The notes beneath the pieces are model-generated. The model worked only from the letters and a program-made list of their open reading frames with translations, searched no databases and had not been told where the DNA came from. A stretch of DNA of 23,040 bases, taken from positions 1-23,040 of the IMG/VR virus record IMGVR_UViG_3300006810_000415; one strand, 5' to 3'. Made by a program: the position numbers and the translations under genes. Each line of letters starts with the position of its first letter. Position 1 is the stretch's first letter. Below, piece by piece: positions 13,738-22,486 of the stretch. The DNA is from a virus.

Positions 13738-13781
13738 TTCTTGAGAATTTGGTATGCTTGGTGGAGCGGTGTGCCCCTCAT
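13734..13781 (-). CDS. Tiny ORF (15 aa) behind intergenic repeat copy 1
   Basis: Immediately after repeat copy 1, ATG opens MRGTPLHQAYQILKK and stops in an ATGA overlap with the 63-aa gene. The exact placement after the repeat and the coupled stop suggest a translated leader peptide for the next gene, or the remnant of a longer gene whose middle was deleted. Confidence 0.4.
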   Translation of the reverse strand: MRGTPLHQAYQILKK

Positions 13782-13817
13782 ACTACTAGGACACTTTAGA
13801 GGGCCCACTATTTGTTA
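13779..13817 (-). repeat. Intergenic linker repeat, copy 1
   Basis: Leftmost of ten copies. On the minus strand it reads ACAAATAGTGGGCCC then TCTAAAGTGTCCTAGTAGT and ends on ATG. It precedes the 15-aa ORF. Confidence 0.9.
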
Positions 13818-13823
13818 CTCATG

Positions 13824-14006
13824 CTAGTCTATGTCAATCAAACCCGCTTCAATCTTCTCCTGGATTTTATACACAAACTCAATTCCATGTGTCCCACATA
13901 AGCGTTCATAATGCCCCAACACATTTCCTATGTGGGACACACAGTTTTGTGGTATTCTCATTCTTTCTGTGTGTCCCATATGAGGATACTTGTTCGAAAA
14001 TGGCAT
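13824..14006 (-). CDS. Hypothetical ORF overlapping the TGTGTCCCACATA repeats (60 aa)
   Basis: The frame encodes 60 aa starting MPFSNKYPHMGHTERMRIPQ and ending YKIQEKIEAGLIDID. The last 30 residues look like normal protein, but the first half is translated across copies of the 13-nt repeat (giving GHTER, VSHIGN and CGTHG). Either a small gene has been invaded by repeats, with a true start further in, or the frame is partly fortuitous. Confidence 0.45.
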   Translation of the reverse strand: MPFSNKYPHMGHTERMRIPQNCVSHIGNVLGHYERLCGTHGIEFVYKIQEKIEAGLIDID

Positions 14007-14090
14007 AATCTATGTGTCCCACATAAGTCAAGTCAGTATACCTCATGTGTCCCACATAAGTCAAGTCAGTATACCTCATGTGGGACACAT
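13888..14090. repeat. Cluster of direct and inverted TGTGTCCCACATA repeats
   Basis: Direct copies lie at 13888-13900, 14013-14025 and 14046-14058, a shortened one at 13970-13980, and inverted copies at 13929-13941 and 14077-14090. The copies at 14013 and 14046 belong to a 33-nt direct repeat. Adjacent direct/inverted pairs can form stems of 13 bp or more. Confidence 0.85.
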
Positions 14091-14102
14091 AGAATTCATG
14101 AG

Positions 14103-14276
14103 TCACCACCTATCAGGCAAGCTGAGCGATTCTACATATGCCTCGCACTTCTCAGCTGGTTCGAGATCAAGTACTCTATCCCACTGAATCTGTAGCGGGT
14201 CCATATCATCGAATACTTCAAGCTCTAGAGTGACCCTATAACGCTGCTTCTGTGCCTTCTGATACGCAACCGACAT
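14103..14276 (-). CDS. Small hypothetical protein (57 aa), first gene of region C operon
   Basis: The 57-aa product begins MSVAYQKAQKQRYRVTLELE and continues VFDDMDPLQIQWDRVLDLEP, ending LSLPDRW. It looks like a basic N-terminal helix followed by a strand and an acidic helical part. It is the first gene after the TTGACA-N17-TACAAT promoter. The leader CACGGAGCACACTT holds a partial ribosome binding site (GGAG) and the CACTT element of the cluster. Function unknown. Confidence 0.7.
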   Translation of the reverse strand: MSVAYQKAQKQRYRVTLELEVFDDMDPLQIQWDRVLDLEPAEKCEAYVESLSLPDRW

Positions 14277-14303
14277 AAGTGTGCTCCGTGACTGTATGTG
14301 AGT

Positions 14304-14332
14304 ATTGTAGAATAGTCTAGGGTGAATGTCAA
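14304..14332 (-). promoter_or_regulatory. Strong sigma70-type early promoter
   Basis: On the minus strand a perfect TTGACA (14327-14332) is separated by exactly 17 nt from TACAAT (14304-14309), 28 nt before the ATG of the 57-aa gene. This is the best host-type promoter in the window and would drive the region C genes down to the hairpin at 12443-12472. Confidence 0.85.
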
Positions 14333-14335
14333 GGT

Positions 14336-14453
14336 CTTGGGGGTATTTATGGGGGGGTTGGTGGAGTTTTATGGGGTATGTGTGGGATTTCTGATAGTGG
14401 GGGGTTGACAGATTGGGGGAGGTGTGCTAAGCTGACGCAGGCAAAGATCACAA
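14336..14453 (+). other. G-tract-rich noncoding segment with plus-strand promoter candidate
   Basis: The plus strand carries at least five runs of 3-7 G within about 90 nt (14337-14418), enough for G-quadruplex potential. At 14405-14410 there is TTGACA, then 17 nt, then TAAGCT (14428-14433) preceded by TG, an extended -10 arrangement that would transcribe rightward through the tandem array. On the minus strand, CATAAATA at 14344-14351 matches the late-promoter form. No gene is visible. Confidence 0.5.
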
Positions 14454-14613
14454 GGTCTCAGAGCATTAAAAGGGTATAAGTTACGGGGTCTCAGAGCATT
14501 AAAAGGGTATAAGTTACGGGGTCTCAGAGCATTAAAAGGGTATAAGTTACGGGGTCTCAGAGCATTAAAAGGGTATAAGTATCAGACTTAGAGACAATTA
14601 AAAGGGTATAAAG
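14454..14613. repeat. 33-bp tandem repeat array (iteron-like)
   Basis: Four near-identical 33-bp units start at 14454, 14487, 14520 and 14553, followed by a diverged fifth ending near 14613. Each unit contains GGTCTCAGAG followed by CATTAAAAGGGTATAAG. The array lies in a noncoding gap between two operons. Confidence 0.9.
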
Positions 14614-14754
14614 GGTCTTTAAGTGATACGAATTCGTATTATTATCACCCTTTAATATCAATCATTATCAGCAAATCAAAACACTTAGCTATAATTAAAA
14701 AAGGCTTTTTTGATTGTTTTAATACATTTTTTACCACAAATCTACCAAATAAGC
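14614..14754. other. AT-rich noncoding segment with palindrome
   Basis: A perfect 14-bp palindrome ATACGAATTCGTAT lies at 14626-14639, inside GTGATA/TATCAC outer arms (14623-14648). Downstream the sequence is strongly AT-rich, with AAAAAAGGCTTTTTT at about 14697-14712. No ORF with protein character was found. Confidence 0.6.
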
Positions 14755-14781
14755 ATAAAAAAGACCTCTAATGTGAGGTCT
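14755..14781 (-). terminator. Rho-independent terminator of region E operon
   Basis: On the minus strand AGACCTC-ACATTA-GAGGTCT forms a perfect 7-bp stem with a 6-nt loop, followed by a T run. It lies 10 nt after the stop of the 78-aa gene, the last gene of the right-hand array. Confidence 0.9.
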
Positions 14782-14791
14782 CTATGTGTAT

Positions 14792-15028
14792 TCAATCAAG
14801 TGCTAATCTGTACCGAGCATAATCCTCTGCATCCTTACGTTTGCGGAATCGTGCTAACTCTCCTTCAAATCTTAAGGGAAGAAATCTAAACTTCTTTCCT
14901 TCCTTGGTGATAACAGTTCGAGAGAATAGATGCAATGAGTAACTACCTTCTTCTGTTCTTTCTGCTTCCTTTTGTATAATGAAAGGAGGAAGTTGTTGGT
15001 CAGTGAATGATGCTTTGGAGAGTAACAT
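14792..15028 (-). CDS. Small hypothetical protein (78 aa)
   Basis: The 78-aa product begins MLLSKASFTDQQLPPFIIQK and ends DAEDYARYRLALD. A beta-rich middle (YSLHLFSRTVITKEGKKFRF) is followed by a basic helix (RFRKRKDAEDYARYRLA). It is probably soluble and may bind nucleic acid. It is the promoter-distal gene of the region E operon, 7 nt after the previous stop and directly before the terminator. I do not recognise a family. Confidence 0.7.
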   Translation of the reverse strand: MLLSKASFTDQQLPPFIIQKEAERTEEGSYSLHLFSRTVITKEGKKFRFLPLRFEGELARFRKRKDAEDYARYRLALD

Positions 15029-15035
15029 TTGATTC

Positions 15036-15170
15036 TTAGTTGTTAATCAATTCAGCAGGACTTCCACAAGAGAGATAGAATTGTATCATCCTTTGTGCTT
15101 CATCAAGTGTAGGAAAGTTTTGCGTTCTCCACTGTTGTTGATAAGGAGTAAAGTAGCAAATGGTGAACAT
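15036..15170 (-). CDS. Small hypothetical protein (44 aa)
   Basis: The 44-aa product begins MFTICYFTPYQQQWRTQNFP and continues TLDEAQRMIQFYLSCGSPAE, a beta-hairpin then helix pattern common in small phage proteins. The ATG overlaps the upstream stop as TGATG, supporting coupled translation and the reality of this short frame. Function unknown. Confidence 0.65.
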   Translation of the reverse strand: MFTICYFTPYQQQWRTQNFPTLDEAQRMIQFYLSCGSPAELINN

Positions 15171-15307
15171 CAGTTAAGAGGAAGGATTTGAGTGAGTTTG
15201 TAACCAGCAAGATTGCCAAAGTTCTGGTGAATTGCTTTATACTCTGACCTTGCAATAATCGTCTTAATGTGATGAGTATTGCAGTGTTGGAAGATATACT
15301 TTTTCAT
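15170..15307 (-). CDS. Small hypothetical protein (45 aa)
   Basis: The 45-aa product begins MKKYIFQHCNTHHIKTIIAR and ends AGYKLTQILPLN. Basic and probably alpha/beta, it overlaps the next gene as TGATG. Its leader contains AGTAGTATAAGACCAAAC, also found after repeat copy 4, suggesting a decayed linker repeat here. Confidence 0.65.
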   Translation of the reverse strand: MKKYIFQHCNTHHIKTIIARSEYKAIHQNFGNLAGYKLTQILPLN

Positions 15308-15344
15308 GAGTGATTTCAGTGGTTTGGTCTTATACTACTTTGTA

Positions 15345-15644
15345 TCAAACGAGAACAATATTGTCGCGTCCTTCCTTAATGCGAATCGAACCATTGTGCT
15401 CGTAGATTGTATAATCTACACCATACACAGTTTCGTTAATTACTTGCCAAGAATCTTGGTTGATCTTAACAATCACATAACCATAAACATCCTCATGAGA
15501 GAGTACATCTTGACCAGTGCGATAGGCATACTCAAGAGTAGGAACTACAGCACGATCAACACCAAACTCACCCATAGAGTTGGTGGAGAGAATGAAGAGA
15601 GTGTAGAAGGATCGCATCTTTTTGGAATCGTTGGAAGTGCTCAT
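15345..15644 (-). CDS. Hypothetical protein (99 aa) behind repeat copy 2
   Basis: From the ATG at the end of repeat copy 2 the product is 99 aa: MSTSNDSKKMRSFYTLFILS, then a beta-rich region (YGYVIVKINQDSWQVINETV) ending GRDNIVLV. A longer frame starting at GTG inside the repeat would add nine residues, but that GTG is not conserved among repeat copies. No family is recognised. It probably belongs to the early host-takeover class by context. Confidence 0.7.
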   Translation of the reverse strand: MSTSNDSKKMRSFYTLFILSTNSMGEFGVDRAVVPTLEYAYRTGQDVLSHEDVYGYVIVKINQDSWQVINETVYGVDYTIYEHNGSIRIKEGRDNIVLV

Positions 15645-15680
15645 ACTACTAGGACACTTTAGAGGGCCCACTATTTGTTA
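15642..15680 (-). repeat. Intergenic linker repeat, copy 2
   Basis: Full-length copy ending on the ATG of the 99-aa gene; the variant base is C (GGGCCCTCTAAAG). The upstream gene's stop is 8 nt before it. Confidence 0.95.
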
Positions 15681-15688
15681 GTGAGTGC

Positions 15689-15856
15689 TCAGTTAGAGTA
15701 AAGAATGTCGATCATTCGCTGATGAAACTTATCAGCATCAGTCACACATTCATAAGACAAAGTAGGATCTTCGATGTCATATTGTCTGAGTTCAAGTGCA
15801 TGAATCACATCACCCATAAGTTCAGTCAGAGCGAATACTTTATCTGCATCAGTCAT
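15689..15856 (-). CDS. Small acidic hypothetical protein (55 aa)
   Basis: The 55-aa product begins MTDADKVFALTELMGDVIHA and ends DKFHQRMIDILYSN; it is helical and acidic. I chose the ATG at 15856 because it overlaps the upstream TGA as TGATG. A start at 15874 would extend 6 residues into the neighbour. Function unknown. Confidence 0.7.
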   Translation of the reverse strand: MTDADKVFALTELMGDVIHALELRQYDIEDPTLSYECVTDADKFHQRMIDILYSN

Positions 15857-16110
15857 CAGAACTTCTCCATCCATTGTGCAATCTTAGTCAGTGCAGTTTC
15901 TTCATCATTGCACTTACACTTACGGAACTTCGTAGTGTTTAATCCTTTGGAGATTAACTCTAGTTTGCCATCAGTTAGACAAAAGATTCCATAGCGTGAG
16001 TTATGAAAAATACCGTTAATCCATGTCTCTTGAGTATCAGCACTCACCTTGAAAAAAGTGGAAGAATGACCACCAAGAGTGCTAGTTTCAGTGAAAAGGT
16101 AAGGGAACAT
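15856..16110 (-). CDS. Small hypothetical protein (84 aa)
   Basis: The 84-aa product begins MFPYLFTETSTLGGHSSTFF and ends ALTKIAQWMEKF. A beta-rich body (YGIFCLTDGKLELISKG) with a basic patch (KFRKCKC) precedes a C-terminal helix. It lies 8 nt after the previous gene and couples to the next by TGATG. Not recognised. Confidence 0.7.
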   Translation of the reverse strand: MFPYLFTETSTLGGHSSTFFKVSADTQETWINGIFHNSRYGIFCLTDGKLELISKGLNTTKFRKCKCNDEETALTKIAQWMEKF

Positions 16111-16118
16111 AATTGTTG

Positions 16119-16322
16119 TCAGTTAAGAGTGAAAGATTGAGAAACTAGAATCTCATCATAACCATTCTCTTCGTTATAAAAATACTTCTCATAATTCCAA
16201 GTTTTATCATCATCTTGCTGTGCATAAGAGTGAAGATAACCTTGAGAATCTTCTTTGCAATAACAATCACATTCGGGTTGATAGTAATAACCAGAAGCAA
16301 TAAGTGCGTCAGTGAATGTCAT
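16119..16322 (-). CDS. Small hypothetical protein (67 aa)
   Basis: The 67-aa product begins MTFTDALIASGYYYQPECDC and is rich in Tyr, Asp and Glu (YKEDSQ-, DDDKTWNYEKYFYNEENGYD), so strongly acidic. Such acidic, DNA-mimic-like small proteins are frequent in phage early regions, but no function can be assigned. The leader holds two ACTGAAACTC boxes (16323-16365) instead of a ribosome binding site. Confidence 0.7.
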   Translation of the reverse strand: MTFTDALIASGYYYQPECDCYCKEDSQGYLHSYAQQDDDKTWNYEKYFYNEENGYDEILVSQSFTLN

Positions 16323-16365
16323 TTGAGTTTCAGTGAGTAAATGTTACTTAAGAGAAAAAAGAGTT

Positions 16366-16542
16366 TCAGTTAAACAGAAGGTGAATCTTGTTGCGAATAG
16401 CATAAACATCTTCTGGATTGAACAGATCATCATCAAGTGCATTTCCGATGAAGTTGTAGATCAAATCCCACTGATCTTCAGTGAACAGTTCGCGGTAGAT
16501 TTGCTTGGAAAGTTCTTGGTTGTTCATGTCAGTCTTGCTCAT
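16366..16542 (-). CDS. Small acidic protein (58 aa) behind repeat copy 3
   Basis: The 58-aa product begins MSKTDMNNQELSKQIYRELF and continues TEDQWDLIYNFIGNALDDDL to HLLFN. It is mainly helical and acidic. The start is the ATG ending repeat copy 3, so the start position is fixed by comparison with other copies. Not recognised. Confidence 0.7.
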   Translation of the reverse strand: MSKTDMNNQELSKQIYRELFTEDQWDLIYNFIGNALDDDLFNPEDVYAIRNKIHLLFN

Positions 16543-16577
16543 ACTACTAGGACACTTTAGAGGGCCCACTATTTGTT
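16540..16577 (-). repeat. Intergenic linker repeat, copy 3
   Basis: It exactly fills the gap between the TGA at 16578-16580 and the ATG at 16542. C variant. Confidence 0.95.
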
Positions 16578-16763
16578 TCAGAACTCAATGTTCCAGTCAT
16601 TGTCTGATGTAAGATTGACCCAAAAGTGATTCCTACCGTTAGCAGAAGTGAGAAACACTTTGTTCCCGTGATGTTGCTCTACAATACATTCCTCATTGCG
16701 ATTCATAAGATTACAGAAACGATTGGTAGCTTTCTTACTCTTGGGTGTTACAAATGCGATCAT
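16578..16763 (-). CDS. Small hypothetical protein (61 aa)
   Basis: The 61-aa product begins MIAFVTPKSKKATNRFCNLM and ends NLTSDNDWNIEF. A basic helix is followed by a beta-rich half (GNKVFLTSANGRNHFWV). The ATG is preceded by AACTGAAACA rather than a ribosome binding site, with 4 nt between it and the previous stop. Not recognised. Confidence 0.7.
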   Translation of the reverse strand: MIAFVTPKSKKATNRFCNLMNRNEECIVEQHHGNKVFLTSANGRNHFWVNLTSDNDWNIEF

Positions 16764-16767
16764 TGTT

Positions 16768-17103
16768 TCAGTTACTCATCAGTGCAAATGCCTCATTCTG
16801 AGTGATGCTATCTTGTGGCAGTTGGACATTGCGAGCACAGGCAATCGCATCAGCAAAGACATCGAACTTACCGAAGTTCTTTTGATTGCCAACCCAGCAA
16901 CCTTTGTACTCATAGATCATTGCTTCGACAGAGAATACATCGTTTTTGAAGTTACGATCTACACTGTGCTTGATGTAAACTTTCCCGTCATTTCGGGTGT
17001 AAGTATCGAAAGTCGAAGACTTGAAAGTACGGGAGAAGTCAGTTACAAACTCAGCAGTGAGATCGGTATTCTGAGCGAAGAGATTTGCGTAGTGAACAGT
17101 CAT
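16768..17103 (-). CDS. Hypothetical protein (111 aa) with displaced repeat copy 4
   Basis: The 111-aa product begins MTVHYANLFAQNTDLTAEFV and ends DSITQNEAFALMSN, with a beta-rich middle (GKVYIKHSVDRNFKNDVFSV) and a helix (FADAIACARNV). Unlike the other repeat-linked genes, its ATG lies 23 nt after the repeat, whose terminal ATG is changed to ATA. This argues that the repeat need not provide the start codon. Function unknown. Confidence 0.7.
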   Translation of the reverse strand: MTVHYANLFAQNTDLTAEFVTDFSRTFKSSTFDTYTRNDGKVYIKHSVDRNFKNDVFSVEAMIYEYKGCWVGNQKNFGKFDVFADAIACARNVQLPQDSITQNEAFALMSN

Positions 17104-17125
17104 TTAGTGGTTTTTCGTTTGGTCT

Positions 17126-17164
17126 TATACTACTAGGACACTTTAGAGGGCCCAGTATTTGTCA
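17126..17164 (-). repeat. Intergenic linker repeat, copy 4 (ATA variant)
   Basis: Full-length copy with AATACTGGGCCC (CTG where most copies have GTG) and ATA in place of the terminal ATG. It overlaps the TGA of the upstream gene (17162-17164). Confidence 0.95.
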
Positions 17165-17446
17165 GTTAAAACCTCCGAGCATCAGAAACTCAGAGACAAT
17201 CAGTTTCTTTGCGATACGCTTACCGTTGATTTGGTAAGTATAACGGAACTGACCTTTTACAGTCTTGGAGAGTTTGCAAGTGAGGACAATTTCACCATCT
17301 CGTTGACCTTGGAGATCATACTTTGCGAAGTAGTGGTTACAAACTCCAGTGGCATTGTAATCAACAATACTGTTCAGTTGAGTATAATGATCCTTGGCAA
17401 GATTCTCAGTGAGAATGATCGAATCGTAGAGGTCGTTGATGTTCAT
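17162..17446 (-). CDS. Hypothetical protein (94 aa) behind repeat copy 5
   Basis: The 94-aa product begins MNINDLYDSIILTENLAKDH and contains a beta-rich centre (GEIVLTCKLSKTVKGQFRYT) followed by INGKRIAKKLIVSEFLMLGG. The fold looks alpha then beta meander. The start is the ATG ending repeat copy 5. The TGA lies inside repeat copy 4, so this gene is a complete repeat-bounded cassette. No family recognised. Confidence 0.7.
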   Translation of the reverse strand: MNINDLYDSIILTENLAKDHYTQLNSIVDYNATGVCNHYFAKYDLQGQRDGEIVLTCKLSKTVKGQFRYTYQINGKRIAKKLIVSEFLMLGGFN

Positions 17447-17477
17447 ACTACTAGGACACTTTAGAGGGCCCACTATT
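17444..17477 (-). repeat. Intergenic linker repeat, copy 5 (supplies an upstream stop codon)
   Basis: Its AATAG supplies the GAA-TAG end of the upstream 56-aa gene (stop 17473-17475), while its terminal ATG starts the next gene. The outer part of the repeat (ACAA) is missing. Confidence 0.95.
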
Positions 17478-17643
17478 CATTACCAACCTCAACCCATTCT
17501 CCATCAACACACACAACATCTGGTCCTTCGATGTCACAAAACTCCAAAAGAAAGTGGTCTAGTGTAACACCTACTTGTTGTGCTTCGGTATAAAACTGTT
17601 GGTATTGTTCGCCGTTCAGAATGAAGAAATTAGTCTCAATCAT
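17473..17643 (-). CDS. Small acidic protein (56 aa)
   Basis: The 56-aa product begins MIETNFFILNGEQYQQFYTE and ends CVDGEWVEVGNE. It is acidic, with a short helix followed by beta strands. The stop codon TAG is contributed by repeat copy 5. The start overlaps the end of the preceding membrane-peptide gene by 8 nt. Not recognised. Confidence 0.7.
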   Translation of the reverse strand: MIETNFFILNGEQYQQFYTEAQQVGVTLDHFLLEFCDIEGPDVVCVDGEWVEVGNE

Positions 17644-17785
17644 TGGAAGAAATAATGTCTGCTACAGTGTGAAGTGTGTTGGAAGTTGTTACTCTTACTG
17701 TGGGTGAGAGTATAAATGCCACAACAAAGATCAACAGAATTGTTTTCACTTTAGATGGGGACTTGAATGTTAATCTCCGTGCCAT
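17636..17785 (-). CDS. Small membrane-anchored peptide (49 aa)
   Basis: The 49-aa product has a basic N-terminus (MARRLTFKSPSKVK), one membrane span (TILLIFVVAFILSPTV, about residues 15-30) and a short C-terminal tail NTLHTVADIISSND. The N-in/C-out topology of a single-span inner-membrane peptide is likely from the positive-inside rule. The ATG has a good ribosome binding site (GGAGG) within the end of the upstream gene. Small peptides with an 'FILSP...TL.TVADII' shape are typical of cyanophages. Function unknown. Confidence 0.7.
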   Translation of the reverse strand: MARRLTFKSPSKVKTILLIFVVAFILSPTVRVTTSNTLHTVADIISSND

Positions 17786-17790
17786 TCAAT

Positions 17791-18006
17791 CTAACCTCCA
17801 CCGTACACATATTCGATTATACCTGCTTCCTCAACTCCTACGGATTCGATAACAGTGAACCGTGCAAACTCATCGAAGTCCCGAGCATGATACTCGCTGA
17901 ACTCTTTAATAAACAACTCGCGGCACTGTTCTTTAGATTCAGCAGCGATAACTGCCATGCCAGAAGTCCAATCAGCGAGGACATTGTTGAGTATAAACAG
18001 TTTCAT
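17791..18006 (-). CDS. Small hypothetical protein (71 aa)
   Basis: The 71-aa product begins MKLFILNNVLADWTSGMAVI and continues AAESKEQCRELFIKEFSEYH to EYVYGGG. The N-terminal strand-helix pattern (SGMAVIAAESKEQCRELF) resembles small phage alpha/beta proteins in which a strand carries AVIAAES before a helix. Its end codes the ribosome binding site (GGAGG) of the next gene. The leader has GACTGAAACTTAACT, resembling ACTGAAAC boxes before other genes here. Confidence 0.7.
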   Translation of the reverse strand: MKLFILNNVLADWTSGMAVIAAESKEQCRELFIKEFSEYHARDFDEFARFTVIESVGVEEAGIIEYVYGGG

Positions 18007-18021
18007 GGTTTTAGTTAAGTT

Positions 18022-18252
18022 TCAGTCGAAGCGAGAGGATACATCAGGACCAGGATTCTCAAGGTGTGCAACACTATCTGCAACACCTTCAGCAGTTAAT
18101 GCAAACTGTACTTTTTGACCGTTGTAGTAAATGTCAAAGGCAGATTGCACATAAGGTGCCAGATTGCCTTGCGAATCCCATGCGTTGCGTATATGAGAAG
18201 TCTCGATAATTTCGTAGACTTTAGAGGTGAGAGGTGAAGTGTAGGTCATCAT
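18022..18252 (-). CDS. Small hypothetical protein (76 aa) behind repeat copy 6
   Basis: The 76-aa product begins MMTYTSPLTSKVYEIIETSH and ends NPGPDVSSRFD. A beta-rich core (AFDIYYNGQKVQFALTAEG) suggests a small sheet domain. The first ATG ends repeat copy 6; the second ATG directly follows and could be the real start. Not recognised. Confidence 0.7.
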   Translation of the reverse strand: MMTYTSPLTSKVYEIIETSHIRNAWDSQGNLAPYVQSAFDIYYNGQKVQFALTAEGVADSVAHLENPGPDVSSRFD

Positions 18253-18287
18253 ACTACTAGGACACTTTACAGGGCCCACTATTGTTA
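18250..18287 (-). repeat. Intergenic linker repeat, copy 6
   Basis: G variant (GGGCCCTGTAAAG). It overlaps the upstream TAA (18285-18287) and ends on the next ATG, thus filling the whole gap. Confidence 0.95.
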
Positions 18288-18509
18288 TGCTTGATCAGTT
18301 GATGTTACACTTTCCAGCAGATCATTTAATACTTCTTCATCGTACAATTCTTCAATCTCAGAGAGAAGTTCTGCCTCAGTGTATTTGTTATACTCCGCAA
18401 CTAGAGATTCGATGGCAAATGTGACAAGATCATCCATGTCCATACCATCAATAACCATCTCTGCATAAGATTCAGTCAGAGCACAAAGTTGTTCGTTAGT
18501 AAGTGTCAT
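18285..18509 (-). CDS. Acidic helical protein (74 aa), cyanophage type
   Basis: From the ATG at 18509 the product is 74 aa, starting MTLTNEQLCALTESYAEMVI and strongly acidic (EAELLSEIEELYDEEVLNDL). It looks fully helical. The MTLTNEQLCALTESYAEM start resembles small cyanophage proteins I have seen. An ATG at 18539 overlaps the upstream stop as ATGA and would add ten residues (MISLPNPTSK), so the start is ambiguous. Acidic composition would fit a partner-binding early protein; this is inference. Confidence 0.7.
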   Translation of the reverse strand: MTLTNEQLCALTESYAEMVIDGMDMDDLVTFAIESLVAEYNKYTEAELLSEIEELYDEEVLNDLLESVTSTDQA

Positions 18510-18535
18510 TTTGCTTGTAGGATTAGGAAGGGAAA

Positions 18536-18751
18536 TCATTTCAGAACGTGGCGATAATCAAGGGATTTGATACACCAACCTGTTGCACAGGTGATCTCTT
18601 CTACGAGGTCATCTTCATCATCTGCCTCCCAGATAGAACCAACATACTCTTGGTTGAGTTTTTCTTCAGTGCAGATTTGATCACTTTCGGACCAATCATC
18701 TTCACAGTCGAGAGAACAATCAAACTCGATGTAAGTAACTTGGAATTGCAT
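18536..18751 (-). CDS. Small acidic protein (71 aa), cyanophage type
   Basis: The 71-aa product begins MQFQVTYIEFDCSLDCEDDW and carries GSIWEADDEDDLVEEITCAT (residues 38-57) and a C-terminal WCIKSLDYRHVLK. The pattern strand - acidic helix - strand with IKSLDYRH is typical of a small cyanophage family whose role is unknown. It contains five Cys residues, so metal binding is conceivable. It overlaps the next gene's alternative start as ATGA. Confidence 0.75.
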   Translation of the reverse strand: MQFQVTYIEFDCSLDCEDDWSESDQICTEEKLNQEYVGSIWEADDEDDLVEEITCATGWCIKSLDYRHVLK

Positions 18752-18753
18752 AA

Positions 18754-18924
18754 TCAGTCAACAACAGAGTAACAGGCAACCCAGGAAGGAATCCCAGAGA
18801 GTGATAGCGAACCATTGCGAGCATCGCAATAATCTTGTGCGTCATCTTCAGAGTAGAAAGGTCCAATGTACTCTGGAGAATCGAGTGCCTCAGACCAGAA
18901 TCGGACGGTGTAAGTGTTGCTCAT
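18754..18924 (-). CDS. Small hypothetical protein (56 aa) behind repeat copy 7
   Basis: The 56-aa product begins MSNTYTVRFWSEALDSPEYI and continues GPFYSEDDAQDYCDARNGSL to CYSVVD. A strand, a helix led by FYSEDDAQDYCDA, and a final strand suggest an alpha/beta 'strand-helix-strand' miniprotein. The start is set by repeat copy 7. Not recognised. Confidence 0.7.
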   Translation of the reverse strand: MSNTYTVRFWSEALDSPEYIGPFYSEDDAQDYCDARNGSLSLSGIPSWVACYSVVD

Positions 18925-18955
18925 ACTACTAGGACACTTTACAGGGCCCACTATC
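18922..18955 (-). repeat. Intergenic linker repeat, copy 7
   Basis: G variant, ending on the ATG of the 56-aa gene. The upstream sequence has no evident gene for 170 nt, so this copy does not need an adjacent upstream stop. Confidence 0.95.
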
Positions 18956-18956
18956 A

Positions 18957-19126
18957 TTCAACAATGGTTTTTTGCAGGCAGCGATACCCTCTCAAGCAAA
19001 TCTCAGATGAGACGCAATGAGAACCCAGTCCAGCACTAGAGCAAAAACCGAAAAAACTTGCAATTCTACTGCAAAGGAGCATCAGGTCATCCACGACAGA
19101 GAGTACAAACAAAAACAAAGAGAAAA
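18957..19126. other. Noncoding gap upstream of repeat copy 7
   Basis: A 170-nt stretch. One minus frame stays open (about 40 codons from an ATG at about 19085, ending in TGA before the repeat), but the translation is Cys/Ser-rich and does not look like protein. A deleted gene or a control region is possible. Confidence 0.4.
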
Positions 19127-19315
19127 TCAAAAGGGTTCTTGATACTCTTTGATGTCGCTGTCATAATACTTTCGAAAAATTGAGTCGATTGTATCGTACC
19201 AAATACTATTCCCTGAAGGATACCCACATTCTCGTGCTTGATTCAGAAACTTAAGAATACAACTTTCCTCATTAGGAGTGAAATTAACGCGATTGAAAGT
19301 GTAACCGTCAGTCAT
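19127..19315 (-). CDS. Small hypothetical protein (62 aa)
   Basis: The 62-aa product begins MTDGYTFNRVNFTPNEESCI and ends YDSDIKEYQEPF. The helical centre (ESCILKFLNQARECGYPSGN) suggests a compact soluble protein. A longer frame reaching 19393 would overlap the upstream gene; the ATG at 19315, 4 nt after that gene's stop, is preferred. Not recognised. Confidence 0.7.
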   Translation of the reverse strand: MTDGYTFNRVNFTPNEESCILKFLNQARECGYPSGNSIWYDTIDSIFRKYYDSDIKEYQEPF

Positions 19316-19319
19316 TTGA

Positions 19320-19523
19320 TTAACCATAAGTTGCAAGATAGTCTTCAAGAGTATATTCTTCGTCTGTACCAGTTTCTGATACCAACTCGTCAAAAGACAA
19401 AGTTTTAATCATCTCCAGGTATTCTTCGGGAGTTGGGTCTTCATCAGGGTCAAAATCATCATGGCACAGATACTCATACTCTTGATAAAGTGCCTCAATA
19501 AGTTGTTCTCTTGTTGGTGTCAT
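19320..19523 (-). CDS. Acidic helical protein (67 aa), cyanophage type
   Basis: The 67-aa product begins MTPTREQLIEALYQEYEYLC and continues DDFDPDEDPTPEEYLEMIKT, ending EDYLATYG. It is extremely acidic and helical. The start at 19523 overlaps the upstream TAA (TAATG). The TPTREQLIEAL.EYEYL start resembles short proteins known to me from cyanophage early regions. DNA mimicry or binding to a host enzyme is possible but untested. Confidence 0.75.
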   Translation of the reverse strand: MTPTREQLIEALYQEYEYLCHDDFDPDEDPTPEEYLEMIKTLSFDELVSETGTDEEYTLEDYLATYG

Positions 19524-19687
19524 TAAGAATAAACAGGGATTGATGTGATTTCTTTCCACTCTCGGGGGAAGATTTCGTTGGCAATTTTGTCGTTCAGTTT
19601 GACACAGTTGATAGGTTTGATGTTACTTTTGCGTTGAAACTTCTCAACAGTTCCATCCTTAAACTCAACGCGAATGTTGTAAAGCAT
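19523..19687 (-). CDS. Small basic protein (54 aa)
   Basis: The 54-aa product begins MLYNIRVEFKDGTVEKFQRK and ends WKEITSIPVYS. The initial beta hairpin (YNIRVEFKDGTVEKF) is characteristic of small phage beta proteins. Basic residues in the middle may contact nucleic acid. Its stop overlaps the next gene as TAATG. Confidence 0.7.
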   Translation of the reverse strand: MLYNIRVEFKDGTVEKFQRKSNIKPINCVKLNDKIANEIFPREWKEITSIPVYS

Positions 19688-19689
19688 AA

Positions 19690-19938
19690 TCAGAAGTGTG
19701 CTTCAGAGTAGTCAAGAACTTCGCTGTACTTAGCGATACCATCATAGCAACGTTTTGCCATTTCAGAATCACCTTCAGCGACATAACCTTTCAGAAACTC
19801 GAAGCAGTATTTGATACGCTGCTCAGGAGTAATTTTAGCGAGTTGTTGTTGCTTACGCTCGTAAGCCGCATTGTATGCAAACATTTCACGATCTTCGAGG
19901 GAGATGTTGTGAAACTTGCGTTCGGTAGTGTTGTTCAT
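19690..19938 (-). CDS. Helical hypothetical protein (82 aa) behind repeat copy 8
   Basis: The 82-aa product begins MNNTTERKFHNISLEDREMF and appears all-helical (AYERKQQQLAKITPEQRIKY, then YVAEGDSEMAKRCYDGIAKY). The alternating helix pattern is similar to a TPR-like hairpin, which is only an impression. It starts on the ATG ending repeat copy 8 and stops 2 nt before the next ATG. Confidence 0.7.
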   Translation of the reverse strand: MNNTTERKFHNISLEDREMFAYNAAYERKQQQLAKITPEQRIKYCFEFLKGYVAEGDSEMAKRCYDGIAKYSEVLDYSEAHF

Positions 19939-19974
19939 ACTACTAGGACACTTTAGAGGGCCCAGTATTTGTTA
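19936..19974 (-). repeat. Intergenic linker repeat, copy 8
   Basis: Full-length copy with the AATACTGGGCCC variant. It overlaps the upstream TAA (19972-19974) and ends on the next ATG. Confidence 0.95.
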
Positions 19975-20280
19975 GGCAAAGAACTTTTGGTATATCCAAC
20001 CAATCAGAACTAGAGCAGCAATAGGTACAACAATCCACCAGTATTCTACCAGCAACCAGATACCAACTGCAATGGCACCTAGGATAAGATAACCACTAAC
20101 ATCACCATCGGAAGTGAATGAAGAACCACCAGAGCTTACTTGACGTAAATTGCGAATGTAGATAGGGTTATACAGATGCTCAATTTCCTGTTTTGCGACA
20201 TAAGATGCACCTGCTTCTACAGTAACAGTATATGCAGAGCCTGTAGGAGTTGTTTTAATCTCTGCTTTCCAAGTTGCCAT
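19972..20280 (-). CDS. Two-span membrane protein (102 aa)
   Basis: From the ATG at 20280 the product is 102 aa: MATWKAEIKTTPTGSAYTVT at the start, a conserved-looking IEHLYNPIYIRNLRQVS (about 32-48), a Gly/Ser linker, then two hydrophobic segments (YLILGAIAVGIWLLVEYW and IVVPIAALVLIGWIYQ). The N-terminal domain is probably cytosolic with a C-terminal membrane hairpin. Similar 'MATWK...IYNPI.IRNLRQVSS' proteins occur in cyanophages to my recollection, with no known function. The start overlaps the upstream TAA as TAATG. TAA lies in repeat copy 8. Confidence 0.75.
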   Translation of the reverse strand: MATWKAEIKTTPTGSAYTVTVEAGASYVAKQEIEHLYNPIYIRNLRQVSSGGSSFTSDGDVSGYLILGAIAVGIWLLVEYWWIVVPIAALVLIGWIYQKFFA

Positions 20281-20534
20281 TACCAAGTACCTCTTTGGAT
20301 GTGAATGTTGCGGATTTGAGTGTAAATAAACTGCTTCAATTTATTGTCGTCAGTGTTATCAAAAGCATAATAAAGACGGTTCAAATACTTATCTTGTGTG
20401 GAACCTATGTTACCATCACCACCGATGTCGTTGAGTGATGAACCTGCCTTTCTTCGTGGTTGTGAAATGTTACCTGAAGTTCTGAACTTTGGTTTTATTT
20501 TTGATAGATTGGAGGTTGCAAAATCAAGTGTCAT
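20280..20534 (-). CDS. Basic hypothetical protein (84 aa) next to the homing endonuclease
   Basis: The 84-aa product begins MTLDFATSNLSKIKPKFRTS. A basic, flexible N-terminal half (GNISQPRRKAGSSLNDIGGD) is followed by a helical C-terminal half (YLNRLYYAFDNTDDNKLKQF). Its ATG lies 33 nt from the divergent plus-strand endonuclease gene, so the insertion separated it from its former upstream neighbour. Not recognised. Confidence 0.7.
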   Translation of the reverse strand: MTLDFATSNLSKIKPKFRTSGNISQPRRKAGSSLNDIGGDGNIGSTQDKYLNRLYYAFDNTDDNKLKQFIYTQIRNIHIQRGTW

Positions 20535-20566
20535 TGTGCTAAATAATACAGGTAACTTTGGTTAAA

Positions 20567-21214
20567 ATGAGACACAAACACCACATCATTCCCAAGCACA
20601 GAGGTGGAACAAATGACCCATCAAATCTGGTTGAGATTAGTTTAACTCAACACGCTATGTTTCATTATTGTGAATGGAAACTGCACGGAAAGAGAGCAGA
20701 TTATGTTGCTTGGAAACGATTAGTTGGTAACTTAAAAGATGAGGAACTTGTGCATCAAAAACTGATTATGGGAGGTGAAACATCTGGAAAGAGATGTAAG
20801 GAACTTGGAATAGGCATCTTTGCTTTGAGTAAAGAAGAAAAAAGTAAAATAGGTAAAAAATATGGAAAACTGGGTGGAAAGAAAGGTGGAGTAAGTAGGA
20901 GTGAAAAGAAAATAAATGCTTGCAGAAAAAATATAAAAAAAGCTATTGAAGTTTTTATGGAAAATGATACACCAGAAAAAGCAAGAGAAAGAGGAATAAA
21001 GGGCAACAAATCTCAAAGAGAAAAGTTTGAGAGTGAAGGTAGAACAATCGCGGAACAAAAGTGGATTGTAACTACACCAAATGGAGAAACTTTAGAAGTA
21101 TCAAATCTTAAGAAGTTTTGTAGAGAAAATAACTTACTACCAAACAAAATGTGTGAAGTTGGGAAGGGAAAGTGGAAACAACATAGAGGTTATACTTGCA
21201 AGAGGTTAGAGTAA
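20567..21214 (+). CDS. HNH homing endonuclease
   Basis: This is the only plus-strand gene. From the ATG at 20567 it encodes 215 aa. The N-terminus is an HNH nuclease of the HHIIPKHRGG type (His5-His6, Pro9, Gly13-Gly14), continuing TNDPSNLVEISLTQHAMFHY with Asn20, His29 and His33 as likely metal/catalytic residues. A Lys/Gly-rich middle (KIGKKYGKLGGKKGG) is followed by a C-terminal DNA-binding module (about 166-214: TTPNGETLEVSNLKKFCREN, then KWKQHRGYTC), a NUMOD-like segment typical of phage homing endonucleases. It has AGGTAA upstream. It probably cuts phage DNA lacking it and spreads by repair. Opposite orientation and A-rich codon use mark it as a recent insert. Confidence 0.9.
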   Translation: MRHKHHIIPKHRGGTNDPSNLVEISLTQHAMFHYCEWKLHGKRADYVAWKRLVGNLKDEELVHQKLIMGGETSGKRCKELGIGIFALSKEEKSKIGKKYGKLGGKKGGVSRSEKKINACRKNIKKAIEVFMENDTPEKARERGIKGNKSQREKFESEGRTIAEQKWIVTTPNGETLEVSNLKKFCRENNLLPNKMCEVGKGKWKQHRGYTCKRLE

Positions 21215-21221
21215 GTCATAA

Positions 21222-21377
21222 TCAAACCTCACCACGCATTTTAAGAAGTTCTTTGCGAAGTTCGCCAGATTCATAGGCAAGAAGACCTGTGATTTCAATT
21301 ACTTCATACCATCCTTCATTTTGGTGATACTCAATCAGGGAAACTATAGCATCAATTTGTTTAGTTGTTAAAGTCAT
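21222..21377 (-). CDS. Small hypothetical protein (51 aa)
   Basis: The 51-aa product begins MTLTTKQIDAIVSLIEYHQN and ends GELRKELLKMRGEV. It looks like a small helical bundle with a basic C-terminus. The ATG overlaps the upstream stop as ATGA. Its 3' end is 7 nt from the stop of the convergent homing endonuclease. Confidence 0.7.
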   Translation of the reverse strand: MTLTTKQIDAIVSLIEYHQNEGWYEVIEITGLLAYESGELRKELLKMRGEV

Positions 21378-21625
21378 CGTGCAACAATGTCCAGGGTTTC
21401 CAACAGCATCATCGAAAGTTCCATCTGGTTCTCATCATCAACCACAGGAATGTTTGTCTCTACAAACTCACTAATCAGTTGGGCAAAGAGTTCAGTTGTG
21501 CGTTCATCTGCGAATAGAGCAGTGGCAAGTTCATTCTTGAACCCATCACGCAAAAGTTTGAGGGACTTTGTGACAGTCATTTCTTTGATTTGTTCATCGT
21601 AGGTCATTTCAGTGTCGTAGGTCAT
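21374..21625 (-). CDS. Acidic helical protein (83 aa)
   Basis: The 83-aa product begins MTYDTEMTYDEQIKEMTVTK and ends LSMMLLETLDIVAR; it is helical and acidic. The sequence ATGACCTACGA occurs twice at the 5' end, giving MTYDTEMTYDE and two possible starts (21625 and 21607), a small tandem duplication. The first overlaps the upstream stop as ATGA and is preferred. Confidence 0.7.
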   Translation of the reverse strand: MTYDTEMTYDEQIKEMTVTKSLKLLRDGFKNELATALFADERTTELFAQLISEFVETNIPVVDDENQMELSMMLLETLDIVAR

Positions 21626-21807
21626 TTGTATTGTTCCAATACATCAATAACATGTTGAATACAATCTTTGGGGATGTGAATGGTTTGGTATCCAGGACCA
21701 TTACCATCTTCTATACTCACAGTGCCATACTCATCTGCCGTGAAGTCAAAACTCCACCCATCTTCATCACTTTCAATTTTGATGTGTTTGGTGATAGTGT
21801 AGGTCAT
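21622..21807 (-). CDS. Small beta-rich protein (61 aa)
   Basis: The 61-aa product begins MTYTITKHIKIESDEDGWSF and continues DFTADEYGTVSIEDGNGPGY to VLEQYK. It looks like a beta meander with a C-terminal helix (IPKDCIQHVIDVLEQY). It couples to both neighbours by ATGA overlaps. Function unknown. Confidence 0.7.
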   Translation of the reverse strand: MTYTITKHIKIESDEDGWSFDFTADEYGTVSIEDGNGPGYQTIHIPKDCIQHVIDVLEQYK

Positions 21808-21989
21808 TCATCCTCCTCATAAGGGAACATTTCATCATACTCTTCATCGGTCAGAGTAAGATACTGAACATCAGCATTTTTGTGCTCTTCAGCATACATT
21901 AACTGATAATGTGCGAAGTTTGATGGACTGGTACTAGCATACTCTAGCAGTCCATCAACAAAACAAAGGTAGTTCATTGGAGTGCTCAT
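21804..21989 (-). CDS. Acidic hypothetical protein (61 aa) behind repeat copy 9
   Basis: The 61-aa product begins MSTPMNYLCFVDGLLEYAST and ends TLTDEEYDEMFPYEEDE. A short alpha/beta body is followed by a very acidic tail. The start is set by repeat copy 9; the stop overlaps the next start as ATGA. Not recognised. Confidence 0.7.
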   Translation of the reverse strand: MSTPMNYLCFVDGLLEYASTSPSNFAHYQLMYAEEHKNADVQYLTLTDEEYDEMFPYEEDE

Positions 21990-22017
21990 ACTACTAGGAC
22001 ACTTTAGAGGGCCCAGT
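21987..22017 (-). repeat. Intergenic linker repeat, copy 9
   Basis: Slightly shortened copy (GTAACTGGGCCC at the outer end, CTG variant), ending on the next ATG. The upstream TGA is 5 nt away. Confidence 0.9.
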
Positions 22018-22022
22018 TACAA

Positions 22023-22457
22023 TCAACGACGGTAAAGCCATCCGCCGCTCCAATCCGCATTTTCCAGAGCCCACTCCCTCTCTTTAATGATTAGGAGATT
22101 GCACCTTTCACCCTTTGCAGGAGATTTCCAGGAAGCAGATTTTAGAACTGAACCAGTTTGCTTATCAACAAAGAAAGCAGCACTACGATGTCCACCACCA
22201 TCAACAAAGATGACTTTGTGATACTTTTTACCAGTTTCTACCTGATAATCAATGTCACACTTGCCAGACTTGAGTTCATCAATCTTCTGCTGATGATACC
22301 CAGGAGTTGCATCAAATCGCTCAACAGAACGCTGATGCCCGCGAATAGCATACTGACGATAGTTGTCTTTCAGTGCTTCAATCAGCAGCAGAGTATTCTT
22401 GAGAACATTCTCTGCGATAGTTTGTTGTGCTTGTGCTTGCATTGTGGTTGTGCTCAT
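22023..22457 (-). CDS. Conserved phage protein (144 aa) behind repeat copy 10
   Basis: The 144-aa product begins MSTTTMQAQAQQTIAENVLK and has a helical N-terminal third, then KYHKVIFVDGGGHRSAAFFV (about 84-103) and DKQTGSVLKSASWKSPAKGE (about 104-123). The strand, 'FVDK.TG.V.K.ASWK.PAK' block is one I recognise from many unrelated tailed phages, where it is annotated as a conserved protein of unknown function. It is probably a small beta-sheet domain. The start is fixed by repeat copy 10. Confidence 0.75.
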   Translation of the reverse strand: MSTTTMQAQAQQTIAENVLKNTLLLIEALKDNYRQYAIRGHQRSVERFDATPGYHQQKIDELKSGKCDIDYQVETGKKYHKVIFVDGGGHRSAAFFVDKQTGSVLKSASWKSPAKGERCNLLIIKEREWALENADWSGGWLYRR

Positions 22458-22486
22458 ACTACTAGGACACTTTACAGGGCCCACTA
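22455..22486 (-). repeat. Intergenic linker repeat, copy 10
   Basis: G variant, ending on the ATG of the 144-aa gene. The upstream TGA (22488-22490) lies directly next to it. Confidence 0.95.

Follow-up and report, generated by a model that had tools for sequence, protein, structure and literature searches.

The stretch analyzed here, called the window below, is the entire 23,040-base IMG/VR virus record IMGVR_UViG_3300006810_000415. Its gp6 protein is ~60% identical to the gp6 of P-TIM68, S-SM2, and Bellamy, and the window is thus from a T4-like cyanophage of the Kyanoviridae. A block of small genes ends at gp25/gp6, as in cultured relatives, and holds ten near-identical 29-base copies of a repeated element, each directly 5' of small early genes (Table 1). 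This is the hyperplastic early-gene region, matching the location of related copies in S-SM2, SynMITS9220M01, P-TIM68, and S-B05. The 28-nucleotide (nt) core TGGGCCCT(C/G)TAAAGTGTCCTAGTAGTAT has ten exact matches on the minus strand and none on the plus strand; its single variable position is C in seven copies and G in three. A 16-nt part of the core, AAAGTGTCCTAGTAGT, is matched exactly ten times, where 0.37 matches would be expected even with up to three mismatches allowed, and TGGGCCCT is matched ten times against an expectation of 0.08.

An ATG lies directly 3' of the core, in frame, in nine of the ten copies, continuing as ATGA, whereas the copy at 17126 continues as ATAAGACC and has ATA instead. 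The 5' edge of the copies overlaps or adjoins the stop codon of the preceding gene, and the proteins encoded downstream are short, mutually unrelated, and assigned to different PHROGs or to none. An earlier note on this DNA was accurate in its account of the repeat, including the positions and near-perfect identity of the ten copies. It had also described a linker of 33-39 bp; the repeat stands, but the conserved unit is ~29-31 nt, and a 5' ACAAATA is common to only about half of the window copies. Ribosome binding sites are missing, as was claimed, but this is not special to the genes that follow a copy because genes inside the cassettes also lack a Shine-Dalgarno sequence.

Table 1. Copies of the element and associated features in the window (ORF, open reading frame).
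Feature	Position	Core	Strand	Remarks
Element copy 1 (box + core + ATG)	13779..13808	13780-13807	-	ATG opens 15-codon ORF; ATGA overlap with next gene
Element copy 2	15642..15671	15643-15670	-	ATG is start of ORF ending at 15345
Element copy 3	16540..16569	16541-16568	-	ATG is start of ORF ending at 16366; codon 6 is a further in-frame ATG
Element copy 4, leader type (ATA for ATG)	17126..17155	17127-17154	-	Gene start at 17103, 24 nt downstream
Element copy 5	17444..17473	17445-17472	-	ATG is start of ORF ending at 17162
Element copy 6	18250..18279	18251-18278	-	ATG is start of ORF ending at 18022
Element copy 7	18922..18951	18923-18950	-	ATG is start of ORF ending at 18754
Element copy 8	19936..19965	19937-19964	-	ATG is start of ORF 19938-19690
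Element copy 9	21987..22016	21988-22015	-	ATG is start of ORF 21989-21804
Element copy 10	22455..22484	22456-22483	-	ATG is start of ORF ending at 22023 (PHROG 818, unknown function)
Degenerate eleventh copy AAAGTAGTATAAGACCAAAC	~15321..15341		-	Box and seven core bases gone; matches 3' part of copy 4
Intrinsic terminator	14760..14783		-	3' of main early-gene run; followed by element copy 1 and a few short ORFs

The earlier note had proposed searching other phage genomes for the repeat, and relatives were found both in IMG/VR stretches and in cultured Kyanoviridae. An exact scan of IMG/VR recovered 21 stretches with the element and a relaxed scan at least 118 with its relatives; the 351 copies among the relaxed matches listed never occupied both strands of one contig. 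The 85,000 bacterial and archaeal genomes of GTDB gave no matches to relatives of the element, and a host origin was rejected on that ground. BLAST against cultured phages returned only weak matches because the 3' half of the element is conserved, whereas the 5' half is replaced. The element reads AAGGGGGGTCGCCT then AAAGYGTCCCTATAGTRTRAG in S-SM2 (given also as AAAG(C/T)GTCCCTATAGTRTRAG) and TGTTACTCACCTCT then AAAGTGTCCCTATAGTRTRAG in SynMITS9220M01; de novo searches found GAATTACTCACCTCN then AAANGTCCNCTATAGTGTAA in S-B05 (12 copies) and TTAGTTACCTCT then AAATTGACTTATTAATGTAATCAAGG in P-TIM68 (at least 12 copies). In these four phages the core is kept with fixed spacing before early genes, and looser counterparts were found de novo in Syn9, Bellamy, and P-TIM40. 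No clear motif was seen in S-B43 between 49.7 and 74 kb, the early genes of that phage being probably elsewhere in the record. The AAGTGTCCTG repeats of B23 were judged too different to be relatives. B23 (L134) carries long intergenic repeats with GCAGGNRAAGTGTCCTG...TTGAATACAGTCTAGCAC at 19375, 21612, 22558, and 23187, which have AAGTGTCCT in common with the element but are located away from start codons. In P-TIM40 (L136, 8400-21600), the early promoters combine the palindromic GTGACA...TGTCAC with a CACTACCG box that TATAAT follows at 13 nt, and represent a further box type with a canonical -10.

The element divides into a 3' core that is conserved, AAAGTGT-N5-TAGTRTRAG, and a ~10-nt 5' box that is uniform inside one genome but differs between genomes. 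IMG/VR was scanned with the 3' core alone, to avoid conditioning on the box, and at least 120 stretches were matched. Nearly every contig has its own box, identical or almost so at all its copies; examples are GTTAGTAACC, GTTAGTTACC, ACTTGGATCGTCC, GTTAGGATCG, GTTACGATCG, ACTGAAGCC, ACTGAGGCTTC, ACTGTAGCC, GGGGGGACG, CTGGGGCC, and TGGGCC, the last being the box of the window. Among the core-only matches listed, the 10-nt box was compared over 395 copies from 90 non-redundant contigs: its identity was 0.87 for different genes within one contig but 0.50 for the same gene family across contigs, against a background of 0.48 when neither was shared. The TGGGCC group has the same concerted pattern (1.8 versus 4.3 differences, permutation p = 0.0005), and one gene family, MKNTHLEHPED..., occurs after more than a dozen different boxes. 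The box thus goes with the genome and not with the gene, which is expected of a lineage-specific trans-acting reader and not of a boundary that travels with its cassette.

Uniformity within a genome, divergence between genomes, and a single orientation relative to transcription would also be found if the box bound a phage protein that represses or modulates the early genes, that is, if the copies formed a stoperator- or immunity-like multi-copy operator whose lineage-differing specificity prevents cross-regulation between co-infecting phages. The stoperators of mycobacteriophages are likewise many oriented, short, lineage-specific sites, but they are bound by the repressor of a temperate phage, and there is no sign of such binding here. 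No repressor gene was identified, the phages concerned are regarded as lytic, and the conserved core, with its -10-like motif, is more suggestive of activation or initiation than of repression alone; an operator is judged quite unlikely.

The 205 unique copies fall into two classes. Bases 27-29 are ATG in 138 copies and RTA or ATC in the remainder, and the non-ATG copies have an A/C-rich leader of ~15-30 nt before the AUG. The ATG at bases 27-29 shares the frame of its gene in 131 of the 138, and any additional ATG in the 33 nt that follow keeps this frame, with only three exceptions. About 50 of the 138 have no alternative start within 15 codons, and in the MKNTHLEHPED family the element ATG aligns with the start of leader-using orthologues (P-TIM68 and L043). 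From the in-frame rule, the lone starts, and this alignment, it follows that the element ATG is translated and lies within the mRNA. A second in-frame ATG stands exactly at codon 6 in 50/138 copies, which suggests either two alternative starts or a fossil leader. The frame upstream of the ATG is noncoding because frequent variants contain an in-frame TGA; for the same reason (CCTGAAAG being a common variant), it was rejected that the element encodes an N-terminal tag (GTG GGC CCT ... sharing the frame of the ATG, or MGPLKCPSSM as read in the window). Read-through as the cause of ATG-type copies was also rejected, as these are not rarer far from the upstream gene (15/18, p = 0.19).

Several observations favor a promoter/leader. 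Hexamers resembling a -10 sequence lie near the 3' end of the element (TATAGT; TATTAAT in P-TIM68; TATAAG in Syn9; and TATAAT in P-TIM40, 13 nt after the box of that phage), ~13 nt past the box and with fixed internal spacing. In S-B05, the first copy comes after a divergent gene and thus marks the beginning of a transcription unit, and the ends of ~14 distinct strong terminators lie a short way before a copy. Terminators are, however, no commoner before copies (24/720) than before controls (52/1753), and a terminator built into the element was rejected accordingly.

Our preferred reading, to which we assign a probability of roughly 60%, is that the repeat serves a T4-like cyanophage of the Kyanoviridae as an early-gene promoter/5'-leader element, a switch of the phage's own for its early genes, and that gene shuffling is a side effect. 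Under this reading, a short promoter/5'-leader unit would precede each early cassette of one to four genes. The AT-rich start region would be held in the 3' core, and the 5' box would be the upstream recognition site for a factor specific to the phage lineage; were the box read by such a factor, copies in one genome would stay alike while the boxes of different lineages diverged. Where the last bases are the start codon, as in about two thirds of the copies, the message would begin at or just before the AUG and be nearly leaderless, whereas in the remaining copies 15-30 nt of A/C-rich leader would come first. The many identical copies would also supply homology for occasional cassette deletion or exchange. 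A more elaborate version is put forward only tentatively: a two-part code, in which a family-wide core, whose start codon would be transcribed first (a leaderless early mRNA), is joined to a fast-evolving address box, uniform per genome, that a co-diverging phage factor would read, newly acquired genes being rewritten to the box of the recipient.

Some results weigh against a promoter. Scanned for sigma-70 promoters, the early region gave 20, no more than the 23 in shuffled sequences. The best -10-like hexamer, TATAGT at bases 21-26, would set initiation at about base 33, past the ATG. This is at odds with the in-frame rule unless transcription really begins at about base 27 or translation acts on read-through messages; base 27 is mostly a purine, though the search patterns partly imposed purines there. 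The motif homology of Syn9, Bellamy, and P-TIM40 rests on layout, without clear alignment. In addition, most copies lie 0-12 nt past the upstream stop codon with no terminator between, an arrangement that also fits an RNA-level element within a long message. In that case, early messages would be long and the repeat would be a site at which a phage or host protein, a small RNA, or a ribonuclease controls translation or cuts before each gene. Reading of the element ATG in frame, which puts the stretch in the mRNA, and the lack of a Shine-Dalgarno sequence at ATG-type copies agree with this. But the element RNA folds no better than shuffled sequences (z-scores +1.8, +0.9, +1.3, +0.3, and -0.5) and has no match in Rfam, so that a structured RNA or Rfam family was rejected, no conserved base-paired structure being seen. 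Unrelated boxes keep the same core, and box and core thus do not pair. The S-B05 copy that begins a unit after a divergent gene also counts against such an element, the fixed spacing and -10-like hexamers resemble DNA signals, and we consider action at the RNA level unlikely.

Cassette exchange at the copies is real. Two contigs from different samples, L006 and L020, are identical over 1,344 bp (100%) and 2,161 bp (99.7%). A single 952-bp cassette sets them apart, an exact deletion from repeat to repeat for which assembly error is not fully excluded. Breakpoints between related contigs fell on copies in 44 of 278 unique cases, where copies make up 3.7% of the zone, and recent breakpoints lay at copies on both sides in 16/194 against 2.8% coverage. 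This is an enrichment of ~3-4 fold over sequence share, and the recombination enrichments overall were 2-4 fold. Partner switching was detected in 29/51 clusters at copies compared with 60/209 at ordinary gene junctions (p = 0.0002), and the reverse direction gave 30/50 against 85/190 (p = 0.06). The deletion and both excesses would be expected of a repeat kept for enabling cassette swaps by homologous recombination, a boundary that the earlier note had offered beside, or together with, a common leader recognized by a regulator. However, more than 80-90% of the breakpoints lie away from copies, ordinary gene junctions often switch partners too, and orthologous genes of other phages do not bring the box with them; selection for homology alone would not maintain a fixed core across lineages with different boxes. 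That the repeat exists for recombination is judged very unlikely, and cassette exchange is a secondary effect. The boundary half of the earlier proposal survives only in that sense, while the leader half is better supported, by a core kept across Kyanoviridae and a box private to each genome.

The window also holds other features. Just past the terminator of Table 1, a 33-bp tandem repeat of 3.8 perfect copies (CTTATACCCTTTTAATGCTCTGAGACCCCGTAA on the minus strand) occupies 14454-14580. Many copies of TGTGGGACACA and TGTGTCCCACA are found at 13880-14110, and two of these belong to a perfect 33-bp tandem unit with TTGACT-18-TATACT; the whole resembles an operator or promoter array. An HNH/homing endonuclease-like gene (PHROGs 2081 and 655) at 20558-21214 is inserted between copies 8 and 9, on the plus strand and so opposite to the early genes around it. 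It was rejected as the origin of the repeats because it sits between copies and not at one.

The kind of element is probably already known, and the statement of the earlier note that no such system had been described in cyanophages was too strong. PeSLs, in which an early promoter and a stem-loop form a repeated cassette that mediates gene shuffling in T4-type phages, have been discussed for cyanophage S-PM2 (PMC4503421, describing Arbiol 2010 and Comeau 2014). The likeness is in a regulatory linker that recurs between small early genes of hyperplastic regions, where exchange takes place at its copies. The window element differs in being ~29 nt long, overlapping the start codon, and having a genome-private 5' half; since its RNA does not fold stably and no terminator is built into it, or usually present at all, it is not a classical PeSL. 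A novel early-gene regulatory element was reportedly described in the T4-like cyanophages Syn9 and P-TIM40 by Doron et al. in 2016 (ISME J; cited in PMC5780444). It is similar in lying in the early region, in many copies, before small early genes, but the sequence of the window element is not that of Syn9. To our knowledge, neither the split into private box and core nor a start codon inside the element was described there, and these two features appear to be new. The T4 middle promoter, a MotA box with a sigma-70 -10, resembles the element in having a box ~13 nt upstream of a -10-like hexamer, but the element is early, not middle, its box varies by lineage, and the MotA box sequence was not encountered among the boxes, which are TGGGCC, CTCACC, GGGGGGTCG, GGATCG, and others. 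Cyanophages are reported to be without motA/asiA (PMC5780444). The intergenic repeats of halovirus HF2 are also short, and are experimentally proven promoters (PMC8707807), though in archaeal viruses and of unrelated sequence.

How early genes are switched on in cyanophages that lack the MotA/AsiA of T4 is poorly understood. A signal that more than a hundred environmental phages carry, each lineage with its private box, provides a sequence handle on the putative factor, and it allows early genes, mostly of unknown function, to be called directly from metagenomic contigs. It also offers a handle on which phages are able to swap genes and express those of one another; if the two-part code with rewriting to the recipient's box is true, it would set transcriptional compatibility between phages.

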